Assembly: GCA_017441265.1 (NCBI GenBank)
Contig: JAFRYE010000055.1
Location: forward strand, 1-53,637
Direction of reading: 5' to 3'
DNA from: Lachnospiraceae bacterium
GTDB lineage: Bacteria; Bacillota; Clostridia; Lachnospirales; Lachnospiraceae
Length of the DNA: 53,637 bases
This document shows positions 701 to 40,799 of the stretch, in pieces. The number at the start of each line of letters is the position of its first letter. The first letter of the stretch is position 1. The notes under the pieces are model-generated. The model was not told where the DNA came from and searched no databases. It saw nothing but the letters and a program-made list of their open reading frames with translations. The position numbers and the translations under genes are program-made.

Positions 701-711
701 TTCGGAAAATG
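701..711 (+). repeat. TTCGGAAAATG interspersed motif, copy 1
   Basis: Exact 11-mer in the gap between tRNA-Ser and gyrA, immediately outside the U-tract of the gyrA terminator. It forms an inverted pair with copy 2 across the terminator hairpin. Confidence 0.8.
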
Positions 712-714
712 AGC

Positions 715-749
715 GAAAAAAGCGGGCATCCGTTCACCCGGATGCCCGC
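715..749 (-). terminator. Intrinsic terminator of the gyrA transcription unit
   Basis: A perfect 11-bp stem GCGGGCATCCG/CGGATGCCCGC is followed on the minus strand by six T residues (721-716), 33 nt after the gyrA stop codon. It is bracketed by two inverted copies of the TTCGGAAAATG motif (701-711 and 769-779). Confidence 0.92.
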
Positions 750-768
750 CTGGCTGTCTTTTCGGTTT

Positions 769-779
769 CATTTTCCGAA
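769..779 (-). repeat. TTCGGAAAATG interspersed motif, copy 2
   Basis: Exact 11-mer in inverted orientation to copy 1, ending 2 nt from the gyrA stop codon. Confidence 0.8.
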
Positions 780-781
780 GA

Positions 782-3334
782 TCAGACTTCGTCCTGTCCT
801 TCTTCGGTGTCGTTCTCTGTGTCGGAACCGTCCTCGGATGCTTCCGCTGCCGGATCCTCATCGATGTATCCTTCGGTGCGGCAGACTTTCGCGAAGTTCG
901 CAACACGGATGTCGGCGTCGGCGTCGATGTTCATGCATTTGACGCCGGAGGTGTCACGGCCGATGATGCTGATATCCGATACCGCAATGCGGATCAGGAT
1001 TCCTTCGTTGGTGATCATGATGACATCGTCGTCCGGATCAACCATGCGCGCGCCGACGAGCGGACCGGATTTGTCGACCACCTTGTAGCAGCGGATACCC
1101 TTGCCGCCGCGATGATGGATCGTGAACTCGGAAGGCGACGTGCGCTTGCCGAAGCCATTTTCCGAAATGAAGAGAATGTGCTCGGCCTCGGAGGTGTCGA
1201 CCATGGACACGATCTCATCGTCCTCGGCGAGACGCATACCGAACACGCCCATACCGTTGCGGCCGGTCGCGCGTACGTCCTTCTCGGCGAAGCGGATTGC
1301 AAGACCCTTCTTCGTGATGAGCATCAGCTCGGCGTCGTCGACGGTCTTCTTGACTTCGATCAGCTGATCATCGTCGCGGAGCGAAACCGCAATGATGCCG
1401 ACCTTTCGGATGTTGGCAAATGCCTGCAGCTTCGTCTTCTTGATGATACCCTTGCGGGTCGCCATGAAGAGATAGCCGTCGTCGCCGATATCACGGATCG
1501 GAATGATCGCCGTCACGCGCTCGTCGGGCATGAGCTGGATCAGGTTGATGACCGCCACACCGCGTGCCGTGCGGGATGCCTCCGGAATATCGTATGCCTT
1601 CAGCCGGTAAACGCGGCCGAGGTTGGTGAAGAAGAGGAGATTGTGATGGTTGGTCGTCATCAGCAACCGCTCAATGAAATCCTCCTCGATCGTCTGCATT
1701 CCCTTGATTCCCAGACCGCCGCGCTTCTGCGTGCGGAACGCCTCAGGCGACATGCGCTTGATGTAACCCTTGCGGGACATCGCGATGATCGTGGCGTCGT
1801 CCGGGATCAGATCCTCTGCGTCAAAATCGAACTCATCGTATCCGATGGACGTGCGGCGGTCATCGCCGTAGCGGTCGCGGATCACGGTGATCTCGGTCTT
1901 GATGACGCGGAGAAGCTCTTTCTCATCCGAGAGGATCAGGCGGTACTCGGCAATCTTCGCCTCGAGTGCCGCGAACTCTTCCTCGAGCTTGCTGCGCTCC
2001 AAGCCGGTGAGCTGGCGGAGACGCATATCCACAATGGCCTGTGCCTGTACGTCGTCAAATTCGAAGCGCTCCATCAGGCGCTGCTTTGCCTCGGGCGTCG
2101 TCTTCGAAGAGCGGATGATCGCGATGACCTCGTCGATGAAATCGAGAGCCTTGAGCAGAGCCTCCATGATGTGCTCGCGCTCCTCGGCCTTGTTGAGGTC
2201 GTACTTCGTGCGTCTCGTGACGACTTCTTCCTGGTGCAGGAGATAGTAGGTGAGCATTTGCAGAAGATTCAGCACCTTCGGCTCGTTGTTCACCAGCGCA
2301 AGCATGATCACGCCGTAGGTATCCTGCAATTGTGTGTGCTTGTAGAGATGGTTCAATACGACCGTCGGATTGGCTTCCTTCTTGAGCTCAATGACGATGC
2401 GCATACCCTTCTGATCGGACTCGTCGCGAAGATCGGTGATTCCCTCGATCTTCTTGTCCTTGTGCAGCTCTCCGATCTTTTCCACAAGGCGGGCCTTGTT
2501 TACAAGGTACGGAAGCTCCGTCACGATGATCCGGTGCTTGCCGTTTTCCATCGGCTCGATCGTGGAGACCGCGCGCACGCGGATCTTGCCGCGACCGGTG
2601 CGGTACGCTTCCTCGATACCGCGGGTTCCGAGGATCTGCGCTCCGGTCGGAAAATCCGGTCCCTTGATGATGCGCATGATATCCTCGATCGTCGTCTCAT
2701 TGCCTTCGATCTTATCGTCAATGATGCGAACCACCGCGTCGATGGTCTCGCGAAGGTTATGCGGCGGAATGTTCGTCGCCATACCTACGGCGATACCGGT
2801 GGTACCGTTTACCAGGAGGTTCGGATAGCGGGCGGGCAGTACCGCCGGCTCCTTCTCCGTGTCATCGAAGTTCGGCAGCATATCCACGGTATCTTTGTTG
2901 ATATCCGCGAGCATCTCAACGGAAATTTTGGATAACCGCGCCTCGGTGTATCGCATTGCAGCTGCGCCGTCGCCGTCCACGGAACCGAAGTTTCCGTGAC
3001 CGTCCACGAGCGGGTAGCGGGTGTTCCAGTCCTGCGCCAGATAAACCAACGCGCCGTAGATGGAACTGTCGCCGTGCGGATGGTATTTACCCATCGTATC
3101 ACCGACGATACGCGCGCACTTACGATGCGGCTTATCGGGGCCGTTGTTCAGCTCATTCATCGCGTGCAGGATACGTCTCTGCACCGGCTTCAAACCGTCG
3201 CGCACGTCCGGAAGGGCGCGGGCAGCGATGACGGACATTGCGTATTCGACGAAGGATTTCTCCATCATTTTCCGAAGATCGACATCATCGATCTTGTCAA
3301 ATATATGCTCGTCCATTACATTGAAATCATCCAT
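782..3334 (-). CDS. gyrA: DNA gyrase subunit A
   Basis: Breakage-reunion subunit of DNA gyrase, which with GyrB introduces negative supercoils using ATP. The 850-residue length is normal. The start is set by GAGG placed 7 nt before ATG. Visible features are the quinolone-determining helix [14 protein letters not shown] (88-101), the catalytic tyrosine Y129 in [10 protein letters not shown], and the GyrA box KRGGLGIKG in the C-terminal beta-pinwheel, which identifies gyrase rather than ParC. The C terminus is a strongly acidic Asp/Glu tail of about 25 residues. At the position equivalent to E. coli Asp87 the protein has Gly94, while the Ser83 equivalent (Ser90) is kept. Two copies of the TTCGGAAAATG motif lie in the coding sequence, in different reading frames. 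It is the last gene of the dnaA-to-gyrA run. Confidence 0.99.
1156..1166 (-). repeat. TTCGGAAAATG motif, copy 3 (inside gyrA)
   Basis: Exact 11-mer. In gyrA it is read with frame TCG-GAA-AAT-G, encoding Ser-Glu-Asn-Gly. Confidence 0.8.
3266..3276 (-). repeat. TTCGGAAAATG motif, copy 4 (inside gyrA)
   Basis: Exact 11-mer near the 5' end of gyrA. It is read in a different frame from copy 3: CTT-CGG-AAA-ATG, encoding Leu-Arg-Lys-Met. Confidence 0.8.
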
Positions 3335-3652
3335 GTGTTGTCCTCGTTAGTAAAATGATCTTGCTATCTTTCAACAATTCTGAAAAAGTTTTCGAATCGT
3401 TTCTGAAATGCGCATTCGGTTCTCAAGGGTTCAACGCCCATTCGCAAAAAACGACCTTTTGCAAATGGGTTTCCTGCTGATACATTTTCGAACCATTCGC
3501 AAAAAACGACTTTGATGAAATACGGGTTGTCGTTTTTTGCTCATGTGGCCGCGGTGATAGTCATCACCGTGGCCATGCGCGCATCGCTCCCGATGTTTGA
3601 AAGCAAGCTTTCACATCGGTTTGCGCTGTGCACATTTGGTTCGAAAATCACC
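3335..3652 (-). other. Structured gyrB-gyrA intergenic region
   Basis: No gene is visible in these 318 nt, but secondary structure is dense. Going from gyrB toward gyrA there is a stem-loop at about 3590-3619, one at 3547-3574 (11 bp with one G-U), a perfect 12-bp stem at 3499-3510/3529-3540, and a stem at 3438-3470 (13 bp with one G-U). CATTCGCAAAAAACGAC occurs twice as an exact 17-nt direct repeat (3439-3455 and 3494-3510). No clear promoter or U-tract terminator was found. A role in gyrA expression is an inference. Confidence 0.5.
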
Positions 3653-5641
<1,989 letters not shown>

Positions 5642-5653: not shown

Positions 5654-6745
5654 CTACGGAATCGCTTTCGCCTCCACAGTGCCTTTTTTTACAAGATAAA
5701 TGCTGTCCTCCGAAGATCTGCGGAGAACAAACTCCTCCATTCCGGTACATGTGACGATCGTCTGAAGATTGTCGATCTCGGAGAGAAGCTGCAGCTGCCT
5801 GCTGCGGTCAAGCTCCGAAAGCACATCGTCGAGCAGAAGCACCGGCGCCTCGCCCGCGCGCTCGCGCACAAGCTCGATCTCCGCCAGTTTCAGGGCAAGC
5901 GCCGCCGTCCGCTGCTGACCCTGAGAACCGTACAGCCGGACATTCCGGTCATTTACCGAAAAATCAACATCGTCCCGATGAGGACCGACCCCCGTCGATT
6001 TCATAAACAGATCATGCTCGAAATTCCGCGCAAGCTTGTCTTCATAATCGTCGATTGACACGTTCGGTGCGTACTCCATCGTGAGCGTTTCTTTGTCACC
6101 GCTTAAGCTTCCGTGCTTTTTCGTGACGACGGGCAGAAGATCCCGGATCAACGCCTCCCGCCTTCGTATGATCTCCCTGCCGTATCGAACAAGCTGCTCA
6201 TCCCACACAAAAAGCGTGTCGCGCAGCGAGAGATTTCCCGAAATCTGCTTCAAAAGATTATTTCTCTGAACAAGAACCTTGTTGTAATTGATTAGGTTGC
6301 TGCAGTACACAGGGTCCATCTGGCACAGTTCCATGTCAAGAAACCGCCGCCGCTCCGAAGGTCCGCTCTTCATCATTGCAAGATCGTCGGGGCAGAAGGA
6401 GATCACATGAAGCAAACCGAGCAACTCCGCGCTCCGCCGGATCGGAATCTCATCGATGGCGATACCCTTCGGCTTGTTCCGCCGCAAATGCATATCGACG
6501 CGGTGCGGAACGTTGTGACTCACGATGCGCGTGCCGATGTGCGCCTCATCGCAGCCGAACCGGATCAATTCCTTGTCCTTAGCGCCGCGAAACGCCCGCG
6601 TCGTCGCCGAGAGGCAGATGGCCTCTAAAAGATTTGTCTTTCCCTGGGCGTTGTCGCCGTATAAAAGATTGACTCCTTCGGAAAATGAGATCGTCAACGA
6701 TCCGTAATTTCGAAAATCATTTAATTGTAACTGCCGAATCAGCAT
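5654..6745 (-). CDS. recF: DNA replication and repair protein RecF
   Basis: SMC-like ATPase that helps load RecA at single-strand gaps. Its 363 residues match the family. Walker A is GDNAQGKTN (30-38), the ABC signature is SQGQQRTAAL, and Walker B is LLLDDVLSELD. The start ATG directly follows the TAA stop of yaaA (TAAATG), so translation is probably coupled. An exact copy of the TTCGGAAAATG motif lies in codons 20-23 (Ser-Phe-Ser-Glu), in yet another frame relative to the motif. Confidence 0.98.
   Translation of the reverse strand: MLIRQLQLNDFRNYGSLTISFSEGVNLLYGDNAQGKTNLLEAICLSATTRAFRGAKDKELIRFGCDEAHIGTRIVSHNVPHRVDMHLRRNKPKGIAIDEIPIRRSAELLGLLHVISFCPDDLAMMKSGPSERRRFLDMELCQMDPVYCSNLINYNKVLVQRNNLLKQISGNLSLRDTLFVWDEQLVRYGREIIRRREALIRDLLPVVTKKHGSLSGDKETLTMEYAPNVSIDDYEDKLARNFEHDLFMKSTGVGPHRDDVDFSVNDRNVRLYGSQGQQRTAALALKLAEIELVRERAGEAPVLLLDDVLSELDRSRQLQLLSEIDNLQTIVTCTGMEEFVLRRSSEDSIYLVKKGTVEAKAIP
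6677..6687 (+). repeat. TTCGGAAAATG motif, copy 5 (inside recF)
   Basis: Exact 11-mer antisense to recF. Its reverse complement is read TCA-TTT-TCC-GAA. Confidence 0.8.
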
Positions 6746-8092: not shown

Positions 8093-8164
8093 AAACAATC
8101 CTTTCCTGAAAACGAGGTTTTCATAGCGATGTGGGTCATTTTCCGTAGAGAAATGACAGAATAG

Positions 8165-8313: not shown

Positions 8314-8324
8314 TTCGGAAAATG
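8314..8324 (+). repeat. TTCGGAAAATG motif, copy 6 (in oriC)
   Basis: Exact 11-mer in non-coding origin DNA, between the two DnaA-box groups. Confidence 0.8.
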
Positions 8325-10085: not shown

Positions 10086-10096
10086 TTCGGAAAATG
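10086..10096 (+). repeat. TTCGGAAAATG motif, copy 7 (dnaA-rpmH gap)
   Basis: Exact 11-mer in the intergenic region between the divergent dnaA and rpmH, upstream of the rpmH promoter. Confidence 0.8.
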
Positions 10097-10940: not shown

Positions 10941-12341
10941 ATGAGTTTGAGTTTTCTGACTCAGGTCGGCGGCCTTTTGAAGCCGTTCGCCTGGGTTCTG
11001 GGAATGATCCTCAATGCGATTTACAAGTTTTCCGCTTTGATCGGTATTGAGAACATCGCTTTCTGTATCGTTGTCTTCACGATCGTCGTGAAGATGCTGA
11101 TGTTGCCTCTTACGATCAAGCAGCAGAGATTTGCCAAAGTATCCGCGATGATGAATCCGGAACTTCGTGCGCTCAACGAAAAATACCGCGGGGTTGACCG
11201 TTCCGACCGGGCGGCTATGCAGCGGTATACACAGGAACAGCAGGCGCTGTATCAAAAGTACGGCTCCAGCCCCTTCGGCGGATGTCTTCCGCTGATCATC
11301 ACGCTGTTTGTCTTCTTTGCGTTGTATCGCGTCATTTACGCGATTCCCGCATATGTCACCGATGTCGGCGATCAGTACCGCAACGTGGCACAGTCGGTTT
11401 TCAACATCGGCAAGAGCGATGACAACAACATTTCGGAGAGCGACGTTACCGACGCACTGAAAGAGTTCTGCGACGAGTATAAGGTATCTGCCCGGAATTC
11501 GAAAAATTCCGGAACCAACTACAACATTACGGACATGATCGATATCTTCTCCGTGTACAACACCGACGTGTGGGCGAAATTCCGCTCCGCCGAGCTGTTT
11601 GAGGAGAAAGTCGATGATGACGGCAACGTGATCGAGTCGAAGTGGAATAAACTTGCAGGATCCGCACTGTTTAAGGATGCGATGGCGGCACAGTCCGACA
11701 GCATCGACAAGATCCTGCACGTCAACAGCCTCGGAAAATACAACATTCTGGATGCTCCGGGATATCATTTTCCGGCGATCCTTCTTCCGATCTTAGCCTT
11801 TGTTCTTCAGTTTATAACGGGCCGTATCAGCACCGCGCAGACGAAGACAAAGAACAAGGAAGGCAAGGAAGAAGCAGCGATGCCCGGCATGGGTATGATG
11901 AACACGATTTTCCCGGTTCTGTCCGGCGTATTCTGTGTTTTCATGCCGATCGGTGTCGGTATTTACTGGGTTGTGAACAGCGGCGTCACGATCGTACAGC
12001 AGTTGGCGATCAACAAGTATCTCGCAAAGTATGACATTGAGGATATTGTAGCGAAAAATGAGGCCAAGGCGGCGGAGCGCGTAGAGAAGATGGGATTCTA
12101 CGCAAAAGACGGAGGCGTCTCCAATATCGCGAAATCGAGCACGAAATCGATCGCGACCATCGACACCTCGCGTGACTCCGGCAAGAATAACGACCGCAAC
12201 AAGAACAGCGGAAAACGCAGCGAAAGCGGCAAAGTCTCGCAGAAGAAGAAAGACGAGCTTGCAAAGCAGGCAGCGGAGAAGGGTTCGGTCGGCATAGCCG
12301 CTATTGCCAACATTATGAAGAATGATGATGAGGAGCAATAA
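10941..12341 (+). CDS. yidC: Membrane protein insertase YidC/OxaA
   Basis: Integral membrane insertase and chaperone. N-terminal membrane segments (about 10-32 and 38-60) precede the cytoplasmic loop IKQQRFAKVSAMMNPELRALNEKY. Further conserved segments are SPFGGCLPLIITLFVFFALYRVIY and the C-terminal PVLSGVFCVFMPIGVGIYW. A roughly 130-residue hydrophilic segment (about 140-270) lies between membrane segments, longer than in B. subtilis SpoIIIJ. The Lys/Ser/Asn-rich cytoplasmic tail (about 370-466) is typical of ribosome-contacting extensions. No lipobox is seen. A 9-mer core of the interspersed motif lies at 11766-11774. Confidence 0.96.
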   Translation: MSLSFLTQVGGLLKPFAWVLGMILNAIYKFSALIGIENIAFCIVVFTIVVKMLMLPLTIKQQRFAKVSAMMNPELRALNEKYRGVDRSDRAAMQRYTQEQQALYQKYGSSPFGGCLPLIITLFVFFALYRVIYAIPAYVTDVGDQYRNVAQSVFNIGKSDDNNISESDVTDALKEFCDEYKVSARNSKNSGTNYNITDMIDIFSVYNTDVWAKFRSAELFEEKVDDDGNVIESKWNKLAGSALFKDAMAAQSDSIDKILHVNSLGKYNILDAPGYHFPAILLPILAFVLQFITGRISTAQTKTKNKEGKEEAAMPGMGMMNTIFPVLSGVFCVFMPIGVGIYWVVNSGVTIVQQLAINKYLAKYDIEDIVAKNEAKAAERVEKMGFYAKDGGVSNIAKSSTKSIATIDTSRDSGKNNDRNKNSGKRSESGKVSQKKKDELAKQAAEKGSVGIAAIANIMKNDDEEQ

Positions 12342-13441: not shown

Positions 13442-14848
13442 ATGCGTACGGTTACAGACAACGACACGATCGCGGCAATCGCTACGGCGCTTTCGCCGTC
13501 CGGGATCAGCATCGTCCGCATCAGCGGACCGGAGGCATTTTCCGTGGCATCGCGCGTGTTCGCGGAAGGGACGAAAGGCGGGTTGGCCAACGTCGCTTCG
13601 TACGAAAGCCACACGGCCCATTACGGCCGGATTCAGGACGGCGACGGCCGCCCTGTGGATGAAGTTATCCTGCTCATGATGCGCGCCCCGCGTACGTACA
13701 CCCGCGAGGATACCGTGGAGATCGACTGCCACGGCGGAGTGCTGGTCACAAAGCGCGTGCTGGAGGCAGTGCTCGCAGCCGGCGCAAGGCTTGCGGAGCC
13801 CGGCGAGTTCACCCGGCGCGCCTACTTAAGCGGCCGCATGGACTTAAGCCAGGCGGAGGCCGTCGCAGGTATTATCGGCGCGAAAAATGAGCTTTCTCTT
13901 CGCAACTCCGTCCGCCAGTTGCGCGGTCGTGTCCGCGAGGAGATCACCGAAATTCGAGCCCAGCTGCTTCGCGAGATCGCGCAGATCGAAGCTACGCTGG
14001 ACGATCCGGAGCATCTGAGCTTCGACGGATTTGACGAGATCATCACGACACAGACGGCGACGCAGAAGGCGCGTATCCGCCGCCTGATCGACACGGCGGA
14101 CGACGGACGCCGGATTACCGAGGGCATCCGCACCGTGATCGTCGGACGCCCGAACGCGGGCAAAAGTTCGCTCTTAAATGCCCTGCTCGGCGAGGATCGG
14201 GCCATTGTGACCGAGGTCGCCGGCACGACGAGAGACACGCTCACGGAGGAGATCCGGATGCGCGGGATCACGCTTTTGTTAGTGGATACCGCGGGCATCC
14301 GAAGCACGGACGACGCCGTCGAGAAGATCGGCGTGGAGCGCGCGAGGAAGGCTGCGGCCGAGGCGGATCTGATCCTCTTTGTCGTCGACTCCTCGGCGCC
14401 GGTCACGGAGGATGACAGAGCCATCGCCGCCGAGTGCGCCGGCAAACCGTGCATCGTGCTGTTGAACAAGACCGACCTTCCCGCGGCGGTTACGGCAGCG
14501 GAGACGGAGGCATTTTCCGCACAGGCGTCCGGCGGAATGATCGAGATATCCGCAAAGACCGGCGAGGGCTTGCGCGAACTCGAGGAGCGCATCACCGGGC
14601 TGTTCTTTGAGGAGCGGATCAAGGCGGACGACGAGTGCGTTATCACGTCGGAGCGCCACAGACAGGCGTTACTGTCGGCCGAGGAAAGTCTTTCGAAGGT
14701 GCAGGAGAGCATCGAGCTTTGCATGTCCGAAGACTTCTATACCATCGATCTGACGGCCGCATACGAAGCCCTCGGAACCATCCTCGGCGAGGAACCCGAC
14801 GAGGACGTGATCAATGCCATATTTGCAGAATTTTGCTTAGGAAAATGA
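13442..14848 (+). CDS. mnmE: tRNA modification GTPase MnmE
   Basis: With MnmG it installs the (carboxymethyl)aminomethyl group on U34 of certain tRNAs. 468 residues. The N-terminal domain begins [22 protein letters not shown]. The G domain has GRPNAGKSS (about 235-243), a G2/G3 region [11 protein letters not shown] and DTAGIR, and NKTD. It ends in FCLGK, whose Cys is characteristic of MnmE (usual form FCIGK). AAAGGAGG precedes the ATG. Two 9-mer cores of the interspersed motif (13546 and 14511) encode Ala-Phe-Ser. Confidence 0.98.
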
Positions 14849-14897: not shown

Positions 14898-16802
14898 ATG
14901 AACATCCCGGAATTTCAATGTGAATCGTACGATGTCGCCGTGATCGGCGCCGGACACGCCGGCTGTGAGGCCGCGCTTGCCTGTGCGAGACTCGGCTGTG
15001 AGACCATCGTGTTCATGGTCAGTACCGACACGATCGCGCTGATGCCGTGCAACCCGAACATCGGCGGCACGAGCAAAGGCCATTTGGTGCGCGAGCTGGA
15101 TGCTCTCGGCGGCGAGATGGGCCGGAATATCGACCGGACGTACATTCAGAGCAAGATGCTCAACCGCTCCAAGGGCCCGGCAGTGCACTCCCTGCGCGCT
15201 CAGGCCGACAAGCAGCGCTACACGGCGTCCATGCGCAAGACCATGGAAAATCAGGACCACCTCACGCTAAAGCAGGCGGAAGTTACGGATCTGTGTTGGG
15301 AGGATCTGCCGGACGGCACAAAGCGCGTGACCGGCGTCAAGATCGCCTCCGGCGGGATCTATCCGTGCAAGGCCGTGATCCTGTGCTCCGGCGTGTATCT
15401 CAACGCGCGCTGCATCTACGGAGAAGTCAGCCAGTACACCGGCCCGAACGGCCTTCCGAGAGCGACGCATCTGACGGACTCTCTCGTCGCCGCGGGACTG
15501 CAGGTTCAGCGCTTTAAGACGGGAACACCCGCCCGCATCGACGGCCGGACCATCAATTACGAAGCCATGACGCCGCAGTACGGGGACGAGCCGGTGGTGC
15601 CGTTCTCATTTACCAACAGATCCGCCGATATCGCCCACGAGCAGGCGCTTTGCTATCTTACCTACACGAACGAGACGACCCACGAGATCATTCGCGAGAA
15701 TATCTCGCGCTCTCCGCTGTTCTCCGGTGACATCAAGGGAACCGGTCCGCGGTATTGCCCGTCCATCGAGGACAAGGTCGTCAAATTTCCCGACAAGGAC
15801 CGCCACCAGGTGTTCATCGAGCCCGAGGGCGAGTACACGAACGAGATGTACCTTGCGGGACTCTCGTCGAGCCTTCCGGAGGAAGTGCAGATCCGCATGT
15901 ATCGCTCAATCCCCGGTTTGGAAAATGCAAAGATCGTCCGCAACGCCTACGCCATCGAATATGACTGCCTGAACGCGACGCAGCTCAAGCAAACGCTCGA
16001 GAGCAAGCTCATTCACGGCTTCTACAGCGCCGGGCAGTCCAACGGAAGCTCCGGCTATGAGGAGGCGGCCGCGCAGGGGATCATCGCCGGCATCAACGCC
16101 GCGCTGAAGATCCAGGGCAGGGAGCCGGTTGTGATCGACCGCTCCCAAGGATATATCGGCGTGTTGATCGACGACCTTGTGACGAAGGAGACGAAAGAGC
16201 CGTATCGAATGATGACGAGCCGTTCGGAGTATCGTCTGTTGCTCCGCCAGGACAACGCCGATCTTCGTCTGACCGACATCGGTCACGATGTCGGATTGAT
16301 TTCCGAAGAACGCTATGCGAAGTTCGTCAAAAAGCGCTCCGCGATCGAGTCGGAACTCACCAGACTTCGTGAGACGATTTTGGGCGCAAAAGAAAGTACG
16401 TGTGAATATTTACGCAGCATCGATACATCGATTATACATACGGGCACATCCCTCGCGGAGCTTTTACGGCGACCCGAGATGACCTATGAGATGCTCGCTC
16501 CGCTGGATCCGGAGCGACCCGAGCTTGATGCGGCTGTTATAGAACAAGTAGAAATAGAGATCAAATACGAAGGTTACATCGAGAGGCAGAAAATGCAGGT
16601 TGAGCATTTTAAGAAGCTCGAGCGGAAACGTCTGCCGGAAGATATCGATTACACTGCGATCCCTTCGCTTCGTCTGGAAGCCCGCCAGAAGCTTCAGGCA
16701 CTTCGTCCGGAAAATGTCGGTCAGGCGTCCCGCATCAGCGGCGTCTCCCCTGCGGACATTTCGGTGTTGCTTGTCTGGCTCGGAAGCGGATTGAAAGGGT
16801 GA
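14898..16802 (+). CDS. mnmG: tRNA modification enzyme MnmG (GidA)
   Basis: FAD-dependent partner of MnmE. 634 residues, normal. The FAD-binding GAGHAG is at 17-22; the family signature [22 protein letters not shown] and the later [20 protein letters not shown] are present. GGAG lies 8 nt upstream of the chosen ATG; the longer open frame has no ribosome site. It follows mnmE by 49 nt and precedes rsmG by 16 nt. A motif 9-mer core (16708-16716) is near its 3' end. Confidence 0.98.
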
Positions 16803-20000: not shown

Positions 20001-20354
20001 GCTCTTCGGACTCAGTTTTCGGGGCAAAACAGCGGCTCAGCGTTATGCAAAGATAACGCATTATCTAACGGAGATTATTCGGTTTTGTAACCGCATAACC
20101 GGTCGAAAAAACGCGTAAGAGACGCAAGAATCATACAATATATCGCGATATCTACCGGGGACAGCCGAAGATATAGAGCTAAAGACCGCGAAAACAGCGG
20201 CGTTTACAGCTAAAACAGTAAGAAATGCAATGAGAAAACCAAACTAAGCATAACGCGTTATTTGCACGGAGACACAAAAAACTGTGGAAGTTTACGCTTG
20301 CATGAGGTATAATAAGCAACGGTTTTGGTTGTTCATTTTCCGAAGAGAAAAATT
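20001..20354. other. Intergenic region between the DUF4446 gene and tRNA-Arg
   Basis: No gene is seen. The region contains a 7-bp hairpin GCGTTAT/ATAACGC (20040-20059) and a second similar GCATAACGCGTTAT near 20250. A good -10 TATAAT (20308-20313) without a clear -35 probably serves tRNA-Arg. Motif copy 8 lies at 20334-20344. Confidence 0.5.
20334..20344 (-). repeat. TTCGGAAAATG motif, copy 8
   Basis: Exact 11-mer in intergenic DNA, 10 nt before tRNA-Arg. Confidence 0.8.
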
Positions 20355-20428
20355 GCACTTGTAGCTCAGTAGGATAGAGCGTCCGCCTCCTAAGCGGAAG
20401 GCCGTGGGTTCGACTCCCGCCAGGTGCG
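20355..20428 (+). tRNA. tRNA-Arg (anticodon CCT)
   Basis: Cloverleaf with acceptor GCACTTG/CAGGTGC (one G-U pair), D-arm GTAGCTCAGTAGGATAGAGC, anticodon stem TCCGC/GCGGA with loop CTCCTAA (anticodon CCT, codon AGG), T-arm GTGGGTTCGACTCCCGC, discriminator G. CCA is not encoded. Confidence 0.96.
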
Positions 20429-20480
20429 TTCGACGGACAGCGGTGTTCGTCGCAAAATGCGCAATATGGAGAGTGATTTT

Positions 20481-22857: not shown

Positions 22858-24414
22858 ATGAAGCCGGAAGACTTGTTTGAACATATGAGTGCGATCGATG
22901 ACGAAATTCTGGAGCGAAGCGAGCGAAACCGCAAAACCGGTAGCCTTGGAAGGGATCGGCGGACCATCCTGAAACGCTGTTTGGCCGTCGCTGCGGCAAT
23001 CGCGGTGATCGGCGGAGCGGCACTGTTGTTCCACAGCGGAATCTTTCGAGACAGGAAACCGGGCGGAGGAAATGCGACGGACTCGACGATCACGACCGGT
23101 TCCGCCGAGGATACGCTTGCGAAATTTCGGATCGGAGATGCGGAGATTCCGGAGACCGCGAAGTATCCGAACATCCGGAGCTATGACAGTTGGAACGATT
23201 TTGTAAAAGCCGAGAACGAGTGGTGCGACGCTGTTAAGGAACAGCAGATGCAATACCTGATTCAATACACGAACGCGGACAGAGAACAGGCGGATTCCGG
23301 CGTAAAAAAGTTTACCGAAAAAAGCCTCATTGCGTTGCTGCAGGGTGAGAGCGGAACGAATCGGATCTGCTCGCCGCTGAACCTCTATCTGGCGCTTGGT
23401 ATGCTGGCCGAAACGACGACGGGAGAAACCCGTGAACAGATACTTACTGTGCTCGGTGAACAGAGCATAGAGGCGGTTCGCAAGATGTCCGACACGGCGT
23501 GGAACACAGCATATGCGGACGACGGGATCAATCACAGCCTGCTTGCAGCAGCACTGTGGTTGCGGGATGATTCGGACACGGAGTATGTTCCGGAAACCGT
23601 TGAACTGCTGGCATCCATGTATCATGCGTCGACATTCCGCGGGAAGATGGGTTCCGACGCGTATAACAAGGCGCTTCAGACCTGGTTGAACAAAAATACC
23701 GGAGATCTGTTGAAGGGGGCGGCGGCGAAGCAGACCTTCGATACAGCCACGATGCTTGCCCTTACGACGACGGTGTATTACAAAACAAAATGGCAGCTTG
23801 AATATGAGGCAAGCAAGACTTCGCCGGACAAGTTTCATGCCGCAGGCGGGGAAGTGACGGTTGACTTCATGCACAAGACGGAAAATGCCGAATACTATTA
23901 CGGCGACAATTTTATCGCAGTCAGCGATGGTTTTGATGAGCAGGGAGATAACGGCGCCTTTGGCGACATGATCTTCTTCCTGCCCGATGAGGGTGTTTCC
24001 ACGGAAGAACTGTTGTCCGATCCGCAGTTTATGTCGGTGCTGCTCCACGGCAAAGGGGAGCTCGTTACGGTCCGTTTTTCCGTGCCGAAGTTCAGCATCG
24101 ACTCGGAGGCGGAGCTTTCGGACAATCTCAGGAGTCTGGGGATGACCGACGTGTTCACCATCGGAAAGGCGGATTTTTCGGGCATTTTAAAGGATTCCGA
24201 CGGATTGTATCTCTCGAAAGTAGACCATTGCGTGCATGTTGAGATCGATGAAAAGGGAGTAAAAGCCGCCGCGCTCACGGACATGACTGTGGCCGCCGGG
24301 ATGCCGCTGTTGCTTGGCGATGAGTTGGATTTCGTTCTGGATCGGCCGTTCATCTTTGCCGTTCGCTCGGAAAGCGGAATGCCGTTGTTCGTGGGTATTG
24401 TGGAAAACCCTTGA
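22858..24414 (+). CDS. Membrane-anchored serpin with anti-sigma-like N terminus
   Basis: 518 residues. Residues 1-40 form a short charged cytoplasmic segment (KPEDLFEHMSAIDDEILERSE), of the kind found in small clostridial anti-sigma proteins. One transmembrane helix follows (41-60), then a linker, then a complete serpin domain (about 148-518). Serpin landmarks are ICSPLNLYLALGMLAETTTGETREQIL (170-196), LTTTVYYKTKWQ (302-313) and the C-terminal signature DRPFIFAVRSESGMPLFVG (495-513). The reactive-loop hinge is DEKGVKAAALTDMTV; counting P15 from Gly467 puts P1 near Gly481/Met482, with Ala-Ala-Gly before it. Small residues hint at elastase- or subtilisin-like targets. Being directly after an ECF sigma gene, the protein may couple protease trapping outside to sigma release inside (inference). 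Start set by AAAGGAG. Confidence 0.88.
   Translation: MKPEDLFEHMSAIDDEILERSERNRKTGSLGRDRRTILKRCLAVAAAIAVIGGAALLFHSGIFRDRKPGGGNATDSTITTGSAEDTLAKFRIGDAEIPETAKYPNIRSYDSWNDFVKAENEWCDAVKEQQMQYLIQYTNADREQADSGVKKFTEKSLIALLQGESGTNRICSPLNLYLALGMLAETTTGETREQILTVLGEQSIEAVRKMSDTAWNTAYADDGINHSLLAAALWLRDDSDTEYVPETVELLASMYHASTFRGKMGSDAYNKALQTWLNKNTGDLLKGAAAKQTFDTATMLALTTTVYYKTKWQLEYEASKTSPDKFHAAGGEVTVDFMHKTENAEYYYGDNFIAVSDGFDEQGDNGAFGDMIFFLPDEGVSTEELLSDPQFMSVLLHGKGELVTVRFSVPKFSIDSEAELSDNLRSLGMTDVFTIGKADFSGILKDSDGLYLSKVDHCVHVEIDEKGVKAAALTDMTVAAGMPLLLGDELDFVLDRPFIFAVRSESGMPLFVGIVENP
23879..23887 (+). repeat. Motif 9-mer core CGGAAAATG inside the serpin gene
   Basis: Exact core without the leading TT. Other 9-mer-only copies lie at 8137, 11766, 13546, 14511, 16708, 28214, 29001 and 33206. 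Confidence 0.6.
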
Positions 24415-26793: not shown

Positions 26794-26804
26794 TTCGGAA
26801 AATG
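26794..26804 (+). repeat. TTCGGAAAATG motif, copy 9
   Basis: Exact 11-mer filling the gap between the terminator and the stop codon of the CDF transporter, which begins at the next base. Confidence 0.8.
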
Positions 26805-28201: not shown

Positions 28202-28261
28202 CACTTTTTTTGACGGAAAATGAGGTTTTTTGACGAGTTTTTCGGCAGAAGCCGGCCAAAC

Positions 28262-28903: not shown

Positions 28904-29068
28904 GGCAAAAAGGCTCCTTTCACGGAAGAGTGTCGCATTTTGCGGGAAAATGCGACGGCGCTGCCAACAGATGTTACCATAAGATTATGAAAAAAGATAG
29001 CATTTTCCGGGGAATTGTGTTAAGATTTTTCATAACCGCGGCATCGTGGTCACGGAGGAGGAAGGGTT

Positions 29069-30684: not shown

Positions 30685-30695
30685 CATTTTCCGAA
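30685..30695 (-). repeat. TTCGGAAAATG motif, copy 10 (tandem pair)
   Basis: Exact 11-mer starting 5 nt after the holB stop codon. It is separated by one base from copy 11 in the same orientation. Confidence 0.85.
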
Positions 30696-30696
30696 G

Positions 30697-30707
30697 CATT
30701 TTCCGAA
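30697..30707 (-). repeat. TTCGGAAAATG motif, copy 11 (tandem pair)
   Basis: Second member of the direct tandem pair, period 12 nt. Confidence 0.85.
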
Positions 30708-31719: not shown

Positions 31720-32532
31720 ATGGTGAACCGACAAGACTATATCCGAGACGGCGAGCGCGTAGTCGATCTGCAGCGCAACAATCTGGAGCTGATCCAGGAC
31801 CCCGGGCGCTTTTGCTTTGGGATCGACGCCGTTTTGCTGAGTGGCTTTGCCGAGATTAAGGCAGGAGAACGGTGTCTGGACATGGGTACGGGCACGGGCA
31901 TCCTGCCTTTGCTGTTGTCCGCCAAAACGGACGCCGCCGAGCTCGTCGGCCTTGAGATACAGCCCGAAAGCGCCGACATGGCCAGACGCAGCGTAGCACT
32001 CAACATCGCGATTCATTCGGAAAATGAGACATCCGTCGCAGAATCTGCGCCCGCATCTGCGCCATCCCGCGGGGTGGCCGGCAGAGTCCGGATCGTCGAC
32101 GGGGACCTGCGGGAAGCATCGACCTTGTTCGGGCGCTCGAGTTTCGACGCGGTGACCTGCAACCCGCCCTACATGACCGGCGGCCACGGGATCGTGAACT
32201 CCTCGGACGCAAAAGCCATCGCCCGCCACGAAGTCCTCTGCACCATCGATGACGTCGCCCGCGAGGCAGCGGCCGTATTGCGTCCCGGCGGACGGCTCTA
32301 CCTGGTCCACCGGCCTTTCCGGCTCACCGAGATCTTTGCGGCGCTTGCGGTGCACGGCCTCGAGCCCAAGCGCATGCGTCGTGTCTATCCCACCGTCGAC
32401 CGCGAGCCCAATCTGGTATTGATCGGCTGTGTCCGCGGCGGCCGCTCGCGGCTGAGCATCGAGAAGCCGTTGATCCTCGCCGATTCCGACGGGAACCCGA
32501 CGGCCGAGATGAAAGAAGAATACGGGTTTTAA
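31720..32532 (+). CDS. trmN6: tRNA1(Val) (adenine37-N6)-methyltransferase-like protein
   Basis: Class I SAM methyltransferase of the YfiC/TrmN6 family, 270 residues. It starts with DGERVVDLQRNNLELIQDPGRFCFGIDAVLLSGFA, then SAM site LDMGTGTGILPLLLSAK and catalytic NPPY (in VTCNPPYMTGGHG). A Ser/Ala/Glu-rich insertion of about 25 residues (around 98-124) separates the SAM site from VRIVDGDLRE; it contains an exact motif copy. It is followed by rsmI, the usual neighbour. Confidence 0.92.
   Translation: MVNRQDYIRDGERVVDLQRNNLELIQDPGRFCFGIDAVLLSGFAEIKAGERCLDMGTGTGILPLLLSAKTDAAELVGLEIQPESADMARRSVALNIAIHSENETSVAESAPASAPSRGVAGRVRIVDGDLREASTLFGRSSFDAVTCNPPYMTGGHGIVNSSDAKAIARHEVLCTIDDVAREAAAVLRPGGRLYLVHRPFRLTEIFAALAVHGLEPKRMRRVYPTVDREPNLVLIGCVRGGRSRLSIEKPLILADSDGNPTAEMKEEYGF
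32016..32026 (+). repeat. TTCGGAAAATG motif, copy 12 (inside trmN6 insertion)
   Basis: Exact 11-mer encoding Ser-Glu-Asn-Glu with flanking bases, located in a non-conserved loop of the protein. Confidence 0.8.
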
Positions 32533-32589: not shown

Positions 32590-33429
32590 ATGCTGTACCT
32601 GGTGACAACGCCCATCGGCAATCTGGAAGACATGACGGCACGCGCGATCCGCGTACTGAGGGAAGTCGACCTGATCGCGGCGGAAGACACGCGGAATTCC
32701 CGCAAGCTGCTGACGCATTTTGACATCCACACGCCGATGACGAGCTACCACAACAACAACCGGTTTGACAAGGGCCGCGAGCTCACGGAAAAGCTGATCG
32801 CGGGCGTGAACATCGCGGTCATCACGGACGCGGGAATGCCTGGCATCAGCGATCCCGGCGAGGAGCTGGTCCGGATGGCCCTCGAGGCCGGAGTCGAGGT
32901 GACAGCCGTTCCCGGCGCGTGCGCGTGCGTGACGGCGCTCACGATGTCGGGGCTTCCCACGAGGCGGTTCTGCTTTGAGGCCTTTCTGCCCACCGAGAAG
33001 AAAGAGCGGGCCGAAATCCTCGCGGAGCTGGCGAGGGAGACGCGCACGATCGTGCTGTACGAGGCGCCGCACCGTCTGGCGAAAACCCTGGCGGAGCTGG
33101 CCGAAGCGATCGATCCGCAGCGGCAGGTGCGCGTTCTGCGGGAACTCACGAAGAAGCATGAGGACCGGTACTGCGGGACGCTGACCGAGGCAGCGGCCTA
33201 TTATACGGAAAATGAGCCGAAAGGCGAGTGTGTCATCGTCATCGCCGGCGCCGACCCCGGGGAGGCGAAGCGCGCCGAGCAGGCGGCCTGGAGCGATTTG
33301 AGCATTCCGGAGCACGTCGCCATGTACGAAGCGCAGGGGATGAGCCGCAAGGACGCAATGCGGGCAGCGGCAGCGGATCGGGGGATCGGCCGCCGCGAGG
33401 TTTACCGGGCGTTGCTCGAGGAGGAATGA
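32590..33429 (+). CDS. rsmI: 16S rRNA (cytidine1402-2'-O)-methyltransferase RsmI
   Basis: Tetrapyrrole-methylase-fold enzyme that modifies C1402 of 16S rRNA. 279 residues. Signatures are LYLVTTPIGNLEDMTARA, LIAAEDTRNSRKLL, DAGMPGISDPGEELV and YEAPHRL. GGAGG lies 6 nt before the ATG. A motif 9-mer core (33206-33214) encodes Thr-Glu-Asn-Glu. A separate promoter after it starts the next gene. Confidence 0.96.
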   Translation: MLYLVTTPIGNLEDMTARAIRVLREVDLIAAEDTRNSRKLLTHFDIHTPMTSYHNNNRFDKGRELTEKLIAGVNIAVITDAGMPGISDPGEELVRMALEAGVEVTAVPGACACVTALTMSGLPTRRFCFEAFLPTEKKERAEILAELARETRTIVLYEAPHRLAKTLAELAEAIDPQRQVRVLRELTKKHEDRYCGTLTEAAAYYTENEPKGECVIVIAGADPGEAKRAEQAAWSDLSIPEHVAMYEAQGMSRKDAMRAAAADRGIGRREVYRALLEEE

Positions 33430-37329: not shown

Positions 37330-37358
37330 ATAATAGCATAAAAGCCTACAACAAACAA
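37330..37358 (-). promoter_or_regulatory. Promoter of the glycosyltransferase gene
   Basis: Minus-strand TTGTTT (37358-37353), 17-nt spacer, TATTAT (37335-37330). Confidence 0.7.
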
Positions 37359-37845
37359 TAGGAAAAGTTTCGAAAATTGTTGAAAACGCACAAACTTTTT
37401 CTTCGGAAAATGAATTTGTGAACGCGCTGTGAATGCGAAAAATACCATAGTAACCCCATCCGGAAGGACAAATAATCCGTCATAGCGACACGGCCGGGAG
37501 ACAAGAAATGACAAAAAAACGCCTTGAAAGACGTCAATACAGGATAAAATTACCCCTTGACGAAATAAACTCGATGAAGTAGAATCACCGGGTAACGAAA
37601 TCACACAAAAATCACTGTAAAAACCAAGCGTTTACAAATTGTTTACATTTGATGACGTGTGATGCGTCAGAAATTGCAAATTTTTCGAAAATTCGCAAAA
37701 TGAAATTAAAAGAATATTTACAAATGGTTTTCACTACTAATGGGTACAACTTGCATAAATACCACAAGATGTTGTGCTTTTTGCGAAAACCATGCTTAAA
37801 ACCGCGATTTTACTGATATTTTGCACAGTTTTTCCGCCGAAAACC
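37359..37845. other. A+T-rich control region upstream of the pilus operon
   Basis: No gene is seen in these 487 nt. TTTACA-type elements recur: TTTACAAATTG and TTTACATTTG in close succession near 37631-37650, and TTTACAAATGG near 37716. They could be operator sites or alternative -35 elements. Motif copy 13 lies at 37402-37412. No match to the cyclic-di-GMP riboswitch consensus was found. Confidence 0.45.
37402..37412 (+). repeat. TTCGGAAAATG motif, copy 13
   Basis: Exact 11-mer in the intergenic region between the glycosyltransferase and the pilus operon. Confidence 0.8.
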
Positions 37846-37874
37846 TTGCGCTTTTTATTCAAAAGTGGTATGAT
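37846..37874 (+). promoter_or_regulatory. Promoter of the type IV pilus operon
   Basis: TTGCGC, 17-nt spacer, TATGAT, about 77 nt before pilB. It is the only strong promoter seen before the SRP RNA 14.5 kb downstream, so the locus may be one long transcript with internal processing. Confidence 0.78.
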
Positions 37875-37951
37875 TTGGGTGAACAAACACTAGCGGATGC
37901 AAGGCGCGCGGTCGCTGTCGTTCCTTTGCACTGCATTGGGAGGAGCGGCAC

Positions 37952-39649
37952 ATGGCTGAGGTTTATCGAAGAAAAAGACGTCTCGGCGACATGCTTATTC
38001 AGGAGCATGTCATCACGCAGGAACAGCTGCAGGAAGCGCTGGAAGTTAAGAAGACCAGCGATAAGCGACTCGGCGAGATCCTGGTTGATCTGAACTTTAC
38101 GTCGGAAGAGAATATCACGCGGGCACTTACCCGTCAGCTCGGAGTGGAGATGGTTGTGCCGTCTTCCATGAAGATCCCGGATGACATCCTCGGATTGATC
38201 CCGGCCGGCGTTCTTCGTAAATATATGGTGATGCCGTTCGCATACGCGCCGAACAACCCGGGCATCCTTCGAGTCGCAATGGTCGACCCGATGGATATGG
38301 TTGCTCTGGATGACCTCGCGATGGTCACTCATTTGGAGATTGATCCCTATATTGCAACGGCGCACGACATCATGGTCTGCATCGACCGGCATTACGGTAA
38401 CGCCGAAGCCTTGGACGCTGCTGAAGCGTACACCAAGGAGCGCGAGAGCAAGATGCTCGCCGGCGAGGATGAGACGAAAGATGAAGTCAGCGACTCCCCG
38501 ATTGTCGTTCTGGTAAGAAACATGATCGAGTCCGCTGCCCGCCAGAGAGCATCCGATATTCATGTCGAGGCTCTGGAGACGAAAGTTCGTATCCGGTACC
38601 GAATCGACGGTGCGCTCTTCGAACAGATCACATATGATATCGGACTCCTGCCCGCCATCATCGCCCGACTTAAGATCATCGGCGGCATGGACATTTCCGA
38701 AAAGAGAAAGCCGCAAGACGGTCGTATCAGCCAGACGGTCGACCGTATCGAATATGATATCCGTGTTTCCATCCTGCCTACCTACTACGGCGAGAAATGC
38801 GTAATGCGTCTCGCGATGAAGACGGCATTGACGAGAAACAAGAAAGACCTCGGTTTCTCCGACGAGGAGATGAAGGTGTTCGACCACATCCTGGCGAACC
38901 CGCACGGCATCATCCTCGTAACGGGACCTACCGGTTCCGGTAAATCAACAACGCTTTACACGGCGTTGTCCGAGCTGAACCGAGAAGAAGTTAACATCAT
39001 CACCGTTGAGGACCCTGTCGAGGCGAACATCAACGGTATCAACCAGGTACACGTCAACCCGAAAGCGGGTCTCACCTTTGCATCGGCGCTCCGGTCTATT
39101 CTTCGACAAGACCCGGACATCATCATGATCGGTGAGATTCGAGACGGTGAGACGGCCGGCATCGCCGTACAGGCGTCCATCACCGGTCACCTCGTAGTTA
39201 GTACGCTCCACACCAACAGCTCCGCGGCTACGATCGCCCGTCTGATGGATATGGGTGTTGAGAGTTACCTGATCGCCGACTCCGTTGTCGGTGTTATCGC
39301 ACAGAGACTGGTTCGCCGCCTCTGCCCGAAGTGCAAGAAAGAGCGCTTCGCTACCGAGGAAGAGAAAGAGACGATGGGCATTCCTGCAGGAGCAGGCGAT
39401 GTTGTTCTCTACGATCCGGTTGGCTGCACCAACTGCAACAAGGGTTACAAAGGTCGAATCGGTGTTTACGAGATCATGGAGATCTCGCCGAGACTGAAGA
39501 AGATCATTTCCCACAAGGAAGATTCCGAAGTGCTTAAGAAGGCCGCTCTTGAAGAGGGCATGAGCACACTCCGCATGAGTTCCGTGCGCTGCTGCCTGCA
39601 GGGAATCACATCCTATTCCGAGATGCTGCGAGTTTCCTTCGAAGAGTAA
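37952..39649 (+). CDS. pilB: Type IV pilus assembly ATPase PilB
   Basis: Hexameric motor that extrudes pilin subunits. 565 residues. The N-terminal GSPII_E/MshEN domain begins RRLGDMLIQEHVITQEQLQEAL. The ATPase domain has Walker A GPTGSGKST (about 326-334), an Asp box with ITVEDPVE, Walker B DPDIIMIGEIRDGETA and a His box (TGHLVVSTLHTN). A zinc knuckle is formed by CPKC (about 460) and CTNC (about 491), as in PilB/GspE and unlike PilT. GGGAGGAG precedes the ATG. Confidence 0.97.
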   Translation: MAEVYRRKRRLGDMLIQEHVITQEQLQEALEVKKTSDKRLGEILVDLNFTSEENITRALTRQLGVEMVVPSSMKIPDDILGLIPAGVLRKYMVMPFAYAPNNPGILRVAMVDPMDMVALDDLAMVTHLEIDPYIATAHDIMVCIDRHYGNAEALDAAEAYTKERESKMLAGEDETKDEVSDSPIVVLVRNMIESAARQRASDIHVEALETKVRIRYRIDGALFEQITYDIGLLPAIIARLKIIGGMDISEKRKPQDGRISQTVDRIEYDIRVSILPTYYGEKCVMRLAMKTALTRNKKDLGFSDEEMKVFDHILANPHGIILVTGPTGSGKSTTLYTALSELNREEVNIITVEDPVEANINGINQVHVNPKAGLTFASALRSILRQDPDIIMIGEIRDGETAGIAVQASITGHLVVSTLHTNSSAATIARLMDMGVESYLIADSVVGVIAQRLVRRLCPKCKKERFATEEEKETMGIPAGAGDVVLYDPVGCTNCNKGYKGRIGVYEIMEISPRLKKIISHKEDSEVLKKAALEEGMSTLRMSSVRCCLQGITSYSEMLRVSFEE

Positions 39650-39734
39650 TGCTCACGGATGGGGGAACTGCCGGAGCCCGAACGGGCAGGCAGCATGAAA
39701 GCGAATATATTACAGGAAAGGAACTGTTGCTTGT

Positions 39735-40799
39735 ATGAGAGAATTGGATGAGATCCTCCAGGAGGCCGTTGACCGACACGCATCCGATATACATATTACG
39801 GCCGGTCGCCCGGTCATTTTCCGAATCGACGGTGATCTGAGACCGCTCGACGGCGACAAGCTTACACCGGAGCAGATTGAAGAATTGGTCGTACCGCTCT
39901 TCGCGGACAACGATCGTCTGGTAGAGACCATGGAGAAGACCGGTGAGATCGACTTCGCTCACTCACTGTACGGACGCGGACGTTTCCGTGTTAACGTCTT
40001 CAAACAGCGCGGAACGCTGGCAATGGTCATGCGACTCCTTCCGTTTAAGATCCCGGCACCGAGAGAGCTCGGTCTTCCGGCGTCCGTGCAGGAGTTGTGC
40101 CAGAGAAAGAGAGGACTCGTTCTGGTAACCGGAGCAACCGGTTCCGGTAAGTCCACAACATTGGCGTCGCTGATCAACATGATCAATAAGACATACAGCA
40201 AGCACATCATCACACTGGAGGACCCGATCGAGTATCTGCATCGGCATGAGAAATCCATCGTCAACCAGCGTGAGATCGGTGATGATACCGAGAGCTACGC
40301 GGGAGCTCTTAGAGCAGCCCTCCGTGAAGACCCCGATGTTATCCTCGTCGGTGAGATGCGTGACCTGGAGACGATCCAGACCGCCATCACCGCTGCTGAG
40401 ACCGGTCACTTGGTTTTCTCCACGTTGCATACCAACAGTGCGGCAGATACCATCAACCGTGTTATCGACGTTTTCCCGCCTCATCAGCAGCAGCAGATCC
40501 GAGTTCAGCTTGCCAGCGTTATCGAGTGCGTTATCTCGCAGCAGTTGCTGCCGATCCAGACCGGCTCCGGCCGTGTGGCTGCATTCGAGGTCATGATGGG
40601 AACGAGCGCTGTTCGTAACCTGATCCGTGAAGGTAAAGCATTCCAGATTCCTTCGATGATCCAGACCAGTAAGAAGCAGGGCATGCAGTCCATGGACGAT
40701 GCTTTGTACAACCTTTACATCGGCGGTCTGATCAGCGCTGAGAACTGCTTGAACTACGCACAGGATGCAATCGGTATGAGCAGAAAGGTAACATTCTAA
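39735..40799 (+). CDS. pilT: Type IV pilus retraction ATPase PilT
   Basis: Retraction motor that gives twitching and, in competent species, DNA pulling. 354 residues. Walker A GATGSGKST (about 133-141), Walker B DPDVILVGEMRDLETIQ, His box TGHLVFSTLHTN, and the PilT-specific C-terminal AVRNLIREGK (AIRNLIRE in other species). No zinc knuckle. Motif copy 14 lies in codons about 28-31 (Ile-Phe-Arg). The ribosome site AAAGGA is distant from the ATG (about 12 nt). Confidence 0.97.
   Translation: MRELDEILQEAVDRHASDIHITAGRPVIFRIDGDLRPLDGDKLTPEQIEELVVPLFADNDRLVETMEKTGEIDFAHSLYGRGRFRVNVFKQRGTLAMVMRLLPFKIPAPRELGLPASVQELCQRKRGLVLVTGATGSGKSTTLASLINMINKTYSKHIITLEDPIEYLHRHEKSIVNQREIGDDTESYAGALRAALREDPDVILVGEMRDLETIQTAITAAETGHLVFSTLHTNSAADTINRVIDVFPPHQQQQIRVQLASVIECVISQQLLPIQTGSGRVAAFEVMMGTSAVRNLIREGKAFQIPSMIQTSKKQGMQSMDDALYNLYIGGLISAENCLNYAQDAIGMSRKVTF
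39815..39825 (-). repeat. TTCGGAAAATG motif, copy 14 (inside pilT)
   Basis: Exact 11-mer, read as (GT)C-ATT-TTC-CGA-A in pilT. It is the last exact copy in the window; none follows in the remaining 13.8 kb. Confidence 0.8.

Follow-up and report, generated by a model that had tools for sequence, protein, structure and literature searches.

The window analysed here, a stretch of 53,637 nucleotides (contig JAFRYE010000055.1) from the Lachnospiraceae bacterium assembly GCA_017441265.1, contains gyrA, recF, dnaN, dnaA and rnpA, an operon encoding a type IV pilus, and 14 exact copies of the 11-nucleotide word TTCGGAAAATG on both strands (Table 1). The word is real, spread through the whole genome and specific to the genus, and it shows both dialects and deserts. 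A sequence-only reading of the window had reported the 14 copies together with 23 copies of the 9-mer core CGGAAAATG; all were confirmed, the exact copies at the same positions, and independent gene calls likewise placed nine of the 14 between genes. Its statement that the 11-mer occurs far above chance also stood, with the expectation raised from the 0.03 given there to 0.07 by dinucleotide shuffles. Two of the exact copies (30685-30707) lie in tandem, 12 bp apart, between genes.

Table 1. Features of the window. Housekeeping gene names given for copy positions are readings of translations, without family search.
Feature	Position	Strand	Remarks
pilB, extension ATPase	37952..39649	+	best match TIGR02538, 593.9 bits, under cut-off 675.65
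pilT, retraction ATPase	39735..40799	+	TIGR01420 above cut-off
pilC-like platform gene	40855..42066	+	label from operon position, without family search; in 15 of 15 relatives' loci
two pilin genes	42173..43219	+	PF07963 in both
prepilin peptidase	43254..44030	+	PF06750, PF01478
pilM and pilO-position gene	44177..46725	+	PF11104 for pilM; no Pfam match for the second
ComGE/GspI-like minor pilin and 620-aa PilX-position protein	46882..49454	+	ComGE 40.2 bits, under cut-off 49
basic GspH/FimT-like minor pilin, candidate receptor	49546..50043	+	head isoelectric point (pI) 9.6; alignment; AlphaFold2 pLDDT 84.1
PilW-position minor pilin and further pilin-like gene	50056..52249	+	PF07963; DUF7262 under cut-off
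motif desert, 12.9 kb	39826..52690	.	starts inside pilT, ends beyond the last pilin-like gene
exact TTCGGAAAATG	701..711	+	intergenic, downstream of gyrA
exact TTCGGAAAATG	769..779	-	intergenic, 2 bp past gyrA stop codon
exact TTCGGAAAATG	1156..1166	-	within gyrA
exact TTCGGAAAATG	3266..3276	-	within gyrA
exact TTCGGAAAATG	6677..6687	+	within recF
9-mer core CGGAAAATG	8137..8145	-	
exact TTCGGAAAATG	8314..8324	+	intergenic, dnaN-dnaA
exact TTCGGAAAATG	10086..10096	+	intergenic, dnaA/rnpA gap
9-mer core CGGAAAATG	11766..11774	-	
9-mer core CGGAAAATG	13536..13544	-	
9-mer core CGGAAAATG	14511..14519	-	
9-mer core CGGAAAATG	16708..16716	+	
exact TTCGGAAAATG	20334..20344	-	intergenic, shortly before tRNA-Arg (20354-20429)
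9-mer core CGGAAAATG	23879..23887	+	
exact TTCGGAAAATG	26794..26804	+	intergenic
9-mer core CGGAAAATG	28214..28222	+	
9-mer core CGGAAAATG	29001..29009	-	
exact TTCGGAAAATG	30685..30695	-	intergenic, tandem pair
exact TTCGGAAAATG	30697..30707	-	intergenic, tandem pair
exact TTCGGAAAATG	32016..32026	+	within gene 31720-32532
9-mer core CGGAAAATG	33206..33214	+	
exact TTCGGAAAATG	37402..37412	+	intergenic, upstream of pilus operon
exact TTCGGAAAATG	39815..39825	-	within pilT; last copy ahead of desert

The copies were not confined to the window. The genome to which it belongs (G000; 2,585,061 bases in 79 contigs, 97% complete) contained 254 exact copies of TTCGGAAAATG, 123 on the forward and 131 on the reverse strand, against none of the reversed word used as control; with at most one mismatch the numbers were 1,006 and 33. 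The core occurred 1,042 times, or about once per 2.5 kb (reversed word, nine times). Compared with the genome average, the window was richer in exact 11-mers (14 versus 5.3, P = 0.001) and not in the 9-mer (23 versus 21.6). Detailed statistics were obtained on a sample of 453,637 bases, consisting of the window and 20 stretches of 20 kb from six long contigs, chosen non-randomly. In this sample TTCGGAAAATG was the most extreme 11-mer, with 52 copies against 0.85 expected under an order-3 Markov model, far from the near-Markov counts that the sequence-only reading had named as a reason to abandon its proposal. Sites with zero, one, two and three mismatches numbered 52, 109, 436 and 1,724, a graded excess over the means of 12 permuted words (0.17, 4.1, 76 and 730). 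Passages of PMC1939737 describe a mismatch gradient of this kind for an uptake sequence; the one they give for E. coli Chi is much flatter. Expectation-maximisation motif finding in G000 converged on CGgAAAATG from three of three seeds; in several relatives it settled on codon periodicity instead and was discarded, and the dialects described below rest on whole-genome counts.

Within the core, the second base and positions 5-8 (AAAT) were tight in the sample, whereas positions 1, 3 and 9 were soft. The base following TTCGGAAAATG was preferentially A (31 of 52; 0.58 bit), and all other positions over about 20 bases on each side carried less than 0.3 bit. Context was assessed with simple gene calls of our own (362 genes in the sample). 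Between genes 57 cores were found against 2.7 expected; within genes there were 114, compared with 11 under the Markov model and about 10 (maximum 15) in 30 synonymous-codon shuffles, and all six frames were used (40, 29, 15, 13, 11 and 6). In genes of at least 600 bases the cores leaned mildly towards the ends, as is described for the Pasteurellaceae in PMC2346458: 32 of 109 fell within the outer 20% (P = 0.02), while a test of position overall gave P = 0.34. With the leading strand judged by the GC skew of each stretch, the leading/lagging distribution was 28/24 for the 11-mer (P = 1.0 against the expectation from strand-specific composition) and 103/69 for the 9-mer, which departs from equality (P = 0.01) and not from the strand-specific expectation (P = 0.25). 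Inverted pairs acting as terminator hairpins were rejected as an origin: among 172 cores there were six neighbouring pairs less than 80 bp apart, three of them oppositely oriented.

The distribution of the word was examined in 61 genomes: 22 of the same genus (G000 included), 15 representing other genera of the family and 24 from other families of the order. Exact copies of TTCGGAAAATG numbered 6-254 per genome within the genus, 1-14 in the other genera (98 in total versus 57 for the reversed word, a slight excess) and 0-9 in the other families. The word was carried by 20 of the 22 genomes of the genus, in one of them (G016) weakly, and was missing from the sisters G006 and G018. Its spelling differed among species, the forms being TTCGGAAAATGA, CGGCAAATG and GGAAAATGTGA. 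Counts on both strands, word versus reversed control, were 195 and 0 for GGAAAATGTGA in G001 (26 and 0 in G000) and 445 and 46 for CGGCAAATG in G013 (155 and 33 in G000). Examples of whole-genome counts, in the order TTCGGAAAATG, CGGAAAATG, CGGCAAATG and GGAAAATGTGA, are 254, 1,042, 155 and 26 (G000); 254, 1,005, 129 and 27 (G015); 62, 453, 431 and 11 (G007); 45, 324, 445 and 76 (G013); 42, 272, 155 and 195 (G001); 35, 224, 124 and 116 (G021); 10, 96, 143 and 5 (G016); 7, 73, 41 and 5 (G018); and 6, 63, 41 and 1 (G006). In samples of the two sisters the core was near the Markov expectation (9 versus 6.4 in G006, 2 versus 6.5 in G018); genome-wide it exceeded the reversed word (63 versus 23 and 73 versus 15), and one-mismatch forms of the 11-mer were slightly above control (13 versus 6 and 6 versus 1).

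In a midpoint-rooted tree built on four pilus proteins of 16 genomes, G006 and G018 came out as sisters with G016 next to them (support 0.997 and 1.0). This branch was nested among motif-bearing lineages, its join to G012 having a support of only 0.54; from this nesting, the word was probably ancestral in the genus and lost once. Five of the 15 other genera were scanned over about 80 kb each, and none of the five showed a comparable dispersed word: the best dispersed 9-mer reached z values of 6.2-7.3, against 22.6 for G000 (80 kb) and 12.5 for G001. The motif-free G006 and G018 themselves gave 7.4 and 9.6, and the motif-rich G015 (39.5 kb) reached no more than 6.5, an overlap which means that the scan of other genera would miss weak or rare words. 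In the G018 sample (183 kb), longer dispersed repeats, with words around CAGTGCGATCC and TCCTATGAAAC in 13-17 copies, dominated the k-mers.

The most conspicuous gap in the distribution coincides with the pilus operon. In the G000 sample, the desert of the window, bounded at 39,814-52,690 in this count, was the longest of 367 intervals without a slightly degenerate core. When 891 sliding segments of 12.4 kb were scored over 554 kb (mean 9.5 copies), one copy or none was found in only eight, all over the pilus operon. Across 14 motif-bearing genomes the operon held eight copies of CGG[AC]AAATG against 51.5 expected from whole-genome rates, an expectation that local composition roughly halves (0.10 versus 0.24 per 10 kb in G000). 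The depletion was seen in each of the 14, which are related, so that a nominal P is too small; the remainder of the same stretches, outside the operon, had 22 copies against 25.7 expected. The next poorest segments, with three copies, begin at 83.5 kb of G000:C24; labelled by eye, their content is a second pilT standing alone, two genes for ABC transporters and long genes without a name. A second kind of depletion was found in G005. Two stretches that carry phage portal genes, one at about 60-96 kb of G005:C8 and the other at 0-20 kb of G005:C9, are probably prophages; together they contained two cores, where the remainder of their contigs predicts 17.7. Their limits were set after the densities had been seen, and their composition predicts more cores, not fewer. 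One of these stretches has integrase, tail, helicase and polymerase families. The C8 prophage carries an integrase/invertase-family gene and a methyltransferase-like gene.

The pilus operon encodes the components listed in Table 1. By its length, pilM is perhaps fused to a part of pilN, and the 620-aa PilX-position protein had no Pfam match. Full-length pilT with 92-100% identity was present in 17 of the 22 genomes and partial in one more. In relatives' loci, PilT was 91-99% identical and the minor pilins 20-56% over the aligned part. The nearest named PilT relative (95%) came from the metagenome assembly Lachnoclostridium sp. UBA1781, filed under Lachnospiraceae, Bacillota, and strong PilT matches (E below 1e-60) were obtained in 11 of the 15 other genera of the family. 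Both ComEA and ComEC, which the sequence-only reading had proposed to look for, were found in addition to the PilT-type pilus. A short ComEA-like frame was detected in all 22 genomes, once as a fragment, and ComEC in 20; in G000, ComEA scored above the TIGR00426 cut-off and ComEC just under that of TIGR00361. Gaps in this inventory of type IV pilus, ComEA and ComEC were found only in assemblies 79-85% complete. In G016 (C63) and G017 (C57) comEC appears to be broken into two frames, with stop codons in G017, where the motif is still present; either an error in the assembly or a recent loss could account for this.

Minor pilins were compared in 16 loci, 15 of which contained the GspH/FimT-like gene. 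Its product was most often basic, with a head pI of at least 8 in 13 of 15 proteins (lowest 6.9 in G005 and 7.6 in G018). Two residues before the C-terminal TGK/TGR, K or R was found in 11 of 12 motif-rich genomes, and T in all three of G006, G016 and G018. One basic residue of the FimT motif G-[R/K]-x-[R/K] was kept in 14 of 15 proteins, and both in G012. AlphaFold2 predicted a long helix with a beta-strand head (mean predicted local distance difference test score, pLDDT, 84.1; predicted template modelling score 0.73), and a profile search of solved structures returned pilins only, matching mostly along the N-terminal helix. According to parts of PMC8897410 and PMC12040237, FimT of Legionella and Vibrio and the minor pilins ComGD/ComGF use positive charges in DNA binding; the candidate here shares with FimT and the Gram-positive ComGD/ComGF that it is a minor pilin with positive charges. 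Legionella FimT is reported in a portion of PMC8897410 to be non-sequence-specific, in which it differs from the reader proposed here. The receptor is probably a minor pilin, and perhaps the basic GspH/FimT-like protein; the PilW-position pilin may be considered an equal suspect, because in pneumococcus, as sections of PMC12040237 report, the PilW homolog contributes more than FimT.

The second PilT-family gene (G000:C24:88685-89698; L016:8646-9704, minus strand) stands alone, with no second pilus operon around it in the stretches read. Its product is about 50% identical to that of the operon pilT and belongs to the PilT/PilU family (TIGR01420, 440.7 bits, cut-off 319.1). The gene was present in 19 of 22 genomes, and since the three that lack it are precisely those in which the motif is absent or weak (G006, G016 and G018; 96, 80 and 97% complete), it provides a lead towards a putative dedicated uptake motor.

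We consider it likely, at a probability of roughly 70%, that TTCGGAAAATGA with its core CGGAAAATG is a DNA uptake sequence (DUS) with dialects, kept by biased natural transformation and arisen independently in Lachnospiraceae. DNA uptake or self-recognition was also what the sequence-only reading had suggested, and this gains support from the non-polar excess, the mismatch gradient, the restriction to one genus, the dialects, the depletion in two prophages and the presence of pilus, ComEA and ComEC. Free DNA would be taken up by the type IV pilus, a minor pilin would prefer DNA carrying the word, and the DNA would then pass ComEA and ComEC and recombine with the chromosome. As word-bearing fragments would enter more often, chance copies and near-copies would spread and the word would accumulate in recombining DNA, in any frame or orientation; it would not do so in DNA that is not exchanged with relatives, such as prophages and the fast-diverging pilus operon. 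A shift in receptor specificity would let the spelling drift into dialects, and its loss would let copies decay, as may have happened in G006 and G018. From the patterns above we infer biased uptake, a pilin as receptor, the identity of that pilin and help from the second PilT. Also favoured, a little less firmly, is the broader proposition that one genus of Lachnospiraceae, with no common origin with Neisseriaceae and Pasteurellaceae in this respect, evolved its own code for taking up self-DNA, differentiated into species dialects. It would be the first such code among Gram-positive lineages. A type IV pilus, with its own operon kept nearly free of the code, would read it, and a second, dedicated PilT motor would perhaps power the uptake.

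Several observations weigh against this interpretation. Four motif-bearing genomes (G010, G013, G020 and G021, 79-85% complete) had only the paralog and not the pilT of the operon, and G006 and G018 retain the pilus operon and an uninterrupted comEC despite lacking the word. Conservation of positions in related genomes, put forward in the sequence-only reading as a check, was not observed: the word was kept in five of 50 aligned comparisons (one in G018; some stretches overlap, so a few sites are counted twice), and orthologous word sites were overall no better conserved than their flanks. Contig G011:C31, with a conjugation coupling gene, had an ordinary density of eight copies in 23 kb, which speaks against a simple rule that foreign DNA lacks the word. 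Close inverted pairs, frequent in Neisseria, were rare (the three among 172 cores noted above). Because G016, G006 and G018 form a single branch, the correlations with the second PilT and with the K/R position count as one event; the motif-rich G002 has E at that position, and the FimT label is a weak one, the GspH model scoring 31.6 bits against a cut-off of 80.

Other explanations account for part of this evidence. A Chi-like hotspot, a word read by AddAB/RecBCD that halts degradation of the host's own DNA and is therefore frequent in host DNA but scarce in that of phages, would match the abundance in the chromosome and the scarcity in two prophages. Chi is read in one orientation, whereas neither the 11-mer nor the 9-mer showed a bias beyond composition; an 11-nt soft word with species dialects inside one genus is not expected of it, and it gives no reason for the desert at the pilus operon, so that we regard this origin as improbable. 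We give no better odds to a binding site of a nucleoid-associated or chromosome-organising protein co-varying between species, which would explain both orientations, the chromosome-wide spread and the species-specific spelling, but not a non-palindromic word that is frequent in genes at about one core per 2.5 kb, is not kept at orthologous places and is scarce in one operon of 14 genomes and in two prophages. Marginally less probable again is self-marking or defence, with the word methylated or read by a restriction or BREX-like (bacteriophage exclusion) system that spares the cell's own DNA. Its genome-wide and prophage-poor distribution fits, while a word of 9-12 nt whose mismatched forms are in graded excess is rather long and soft to be a methylase target, and restriction words are usually avoided, not enriched. 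The sequence-only reading had listed a nucleoid-protein site and a methylation target as alternatives; both remain on the list, fitting less well than uptake.

Almost no weight attaches to a polar segregation word (like FtsK-orienting polar sequences, KOPS, or SpoIIIE recognition sequences, SRS), a dispersed-repeat remnant or a by-product of protein coding, for which only the high copy number speaks. A polar word was ruled out by an orientation without polarity beyond composition, the strong strand polarity that would have pointed to such a role in the sequence-only reading being absent. A dispersed repeat (repetitive extragenic palindrome, REP; miniature inverted-repeat transposable element, MITE; insertion sequence, IS, end) was ruled out by the unconserved flanks of TTCGGAAAATG. 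Coding was excluded by the use of six frames, the intergenic excess and counts far above synonymous shuffles, in line with the earlier claim that it fails to explain the copies.

To our knowledge, the DNA uptake signals described so far come from just two bacterial families, both Gram-negative. The DUS of Neisseriaceae is GCCGTCTGAA with its dialects, its receptor being the minor pilin ComP; the uptake signal sequence (USS) of Pasteurellaceae is AAGTGCGGT with a subtype, and its predicted receptor is PpdA/ComN. Neither proper can be what is seen here, as the word differs and the nearest named PilT relative is filed under Lachnospiraceae, Bacillota. Like the USS, the present word has a core of about 9 nt and a graded mismatch excess; it differs in word, phylum and envelope type, and its receptor is a guess. 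Unlike in Neisseriaceae, full-length copies number hundreds, not thousands, the phylum and word are different, close inverted pairs are few, no ComP homolog was identified, and we infer the uptake bias. Likenesses to the DUS, as far as parts of the literature on it describe them, are a non-palindromic form of 10-12 nt, very many copies, genic as well as intergenic, and dialects; the DUS dialects of Neisseriaceae follow phylogeny and DUS accumulate in the core genome (PMC3630211, seen in part). A search of titles and abstracts for uptake sequences in Firmicutes, Gram-positives, Clostridia and Lachnospiraceae, and for the word itself, with bioRxiv preprints and most subscription journals outside its coverage, gave no earlier report among the matches listed; none of the listed titles of papers containing the word dealt with a genomic motif. 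If correct, this third case, independent of the other two and found in Bacillota, would demonstrate repeated evolution of the trait. It would also lead one to expect natural transformation in Lachnospiraceae, many of whose members live in the gut. The natural series of dialects, together with a loss, would be useful for finding the receptor, and the word could open a route for introducing DNA into bacteria in which manipulation is difficult.

Two further sequence features were noted. The palindrome CGATATCG occurred at three to four times the Markov expectation in G001 (26 versus 7), G002 (42 versus 14) and G008 (32 versus 10). Directly after the pilus operon, positions 52418-52679 of the window encode a large bacterial signal recognition particle RNA (RF01854, 179.8 bits).

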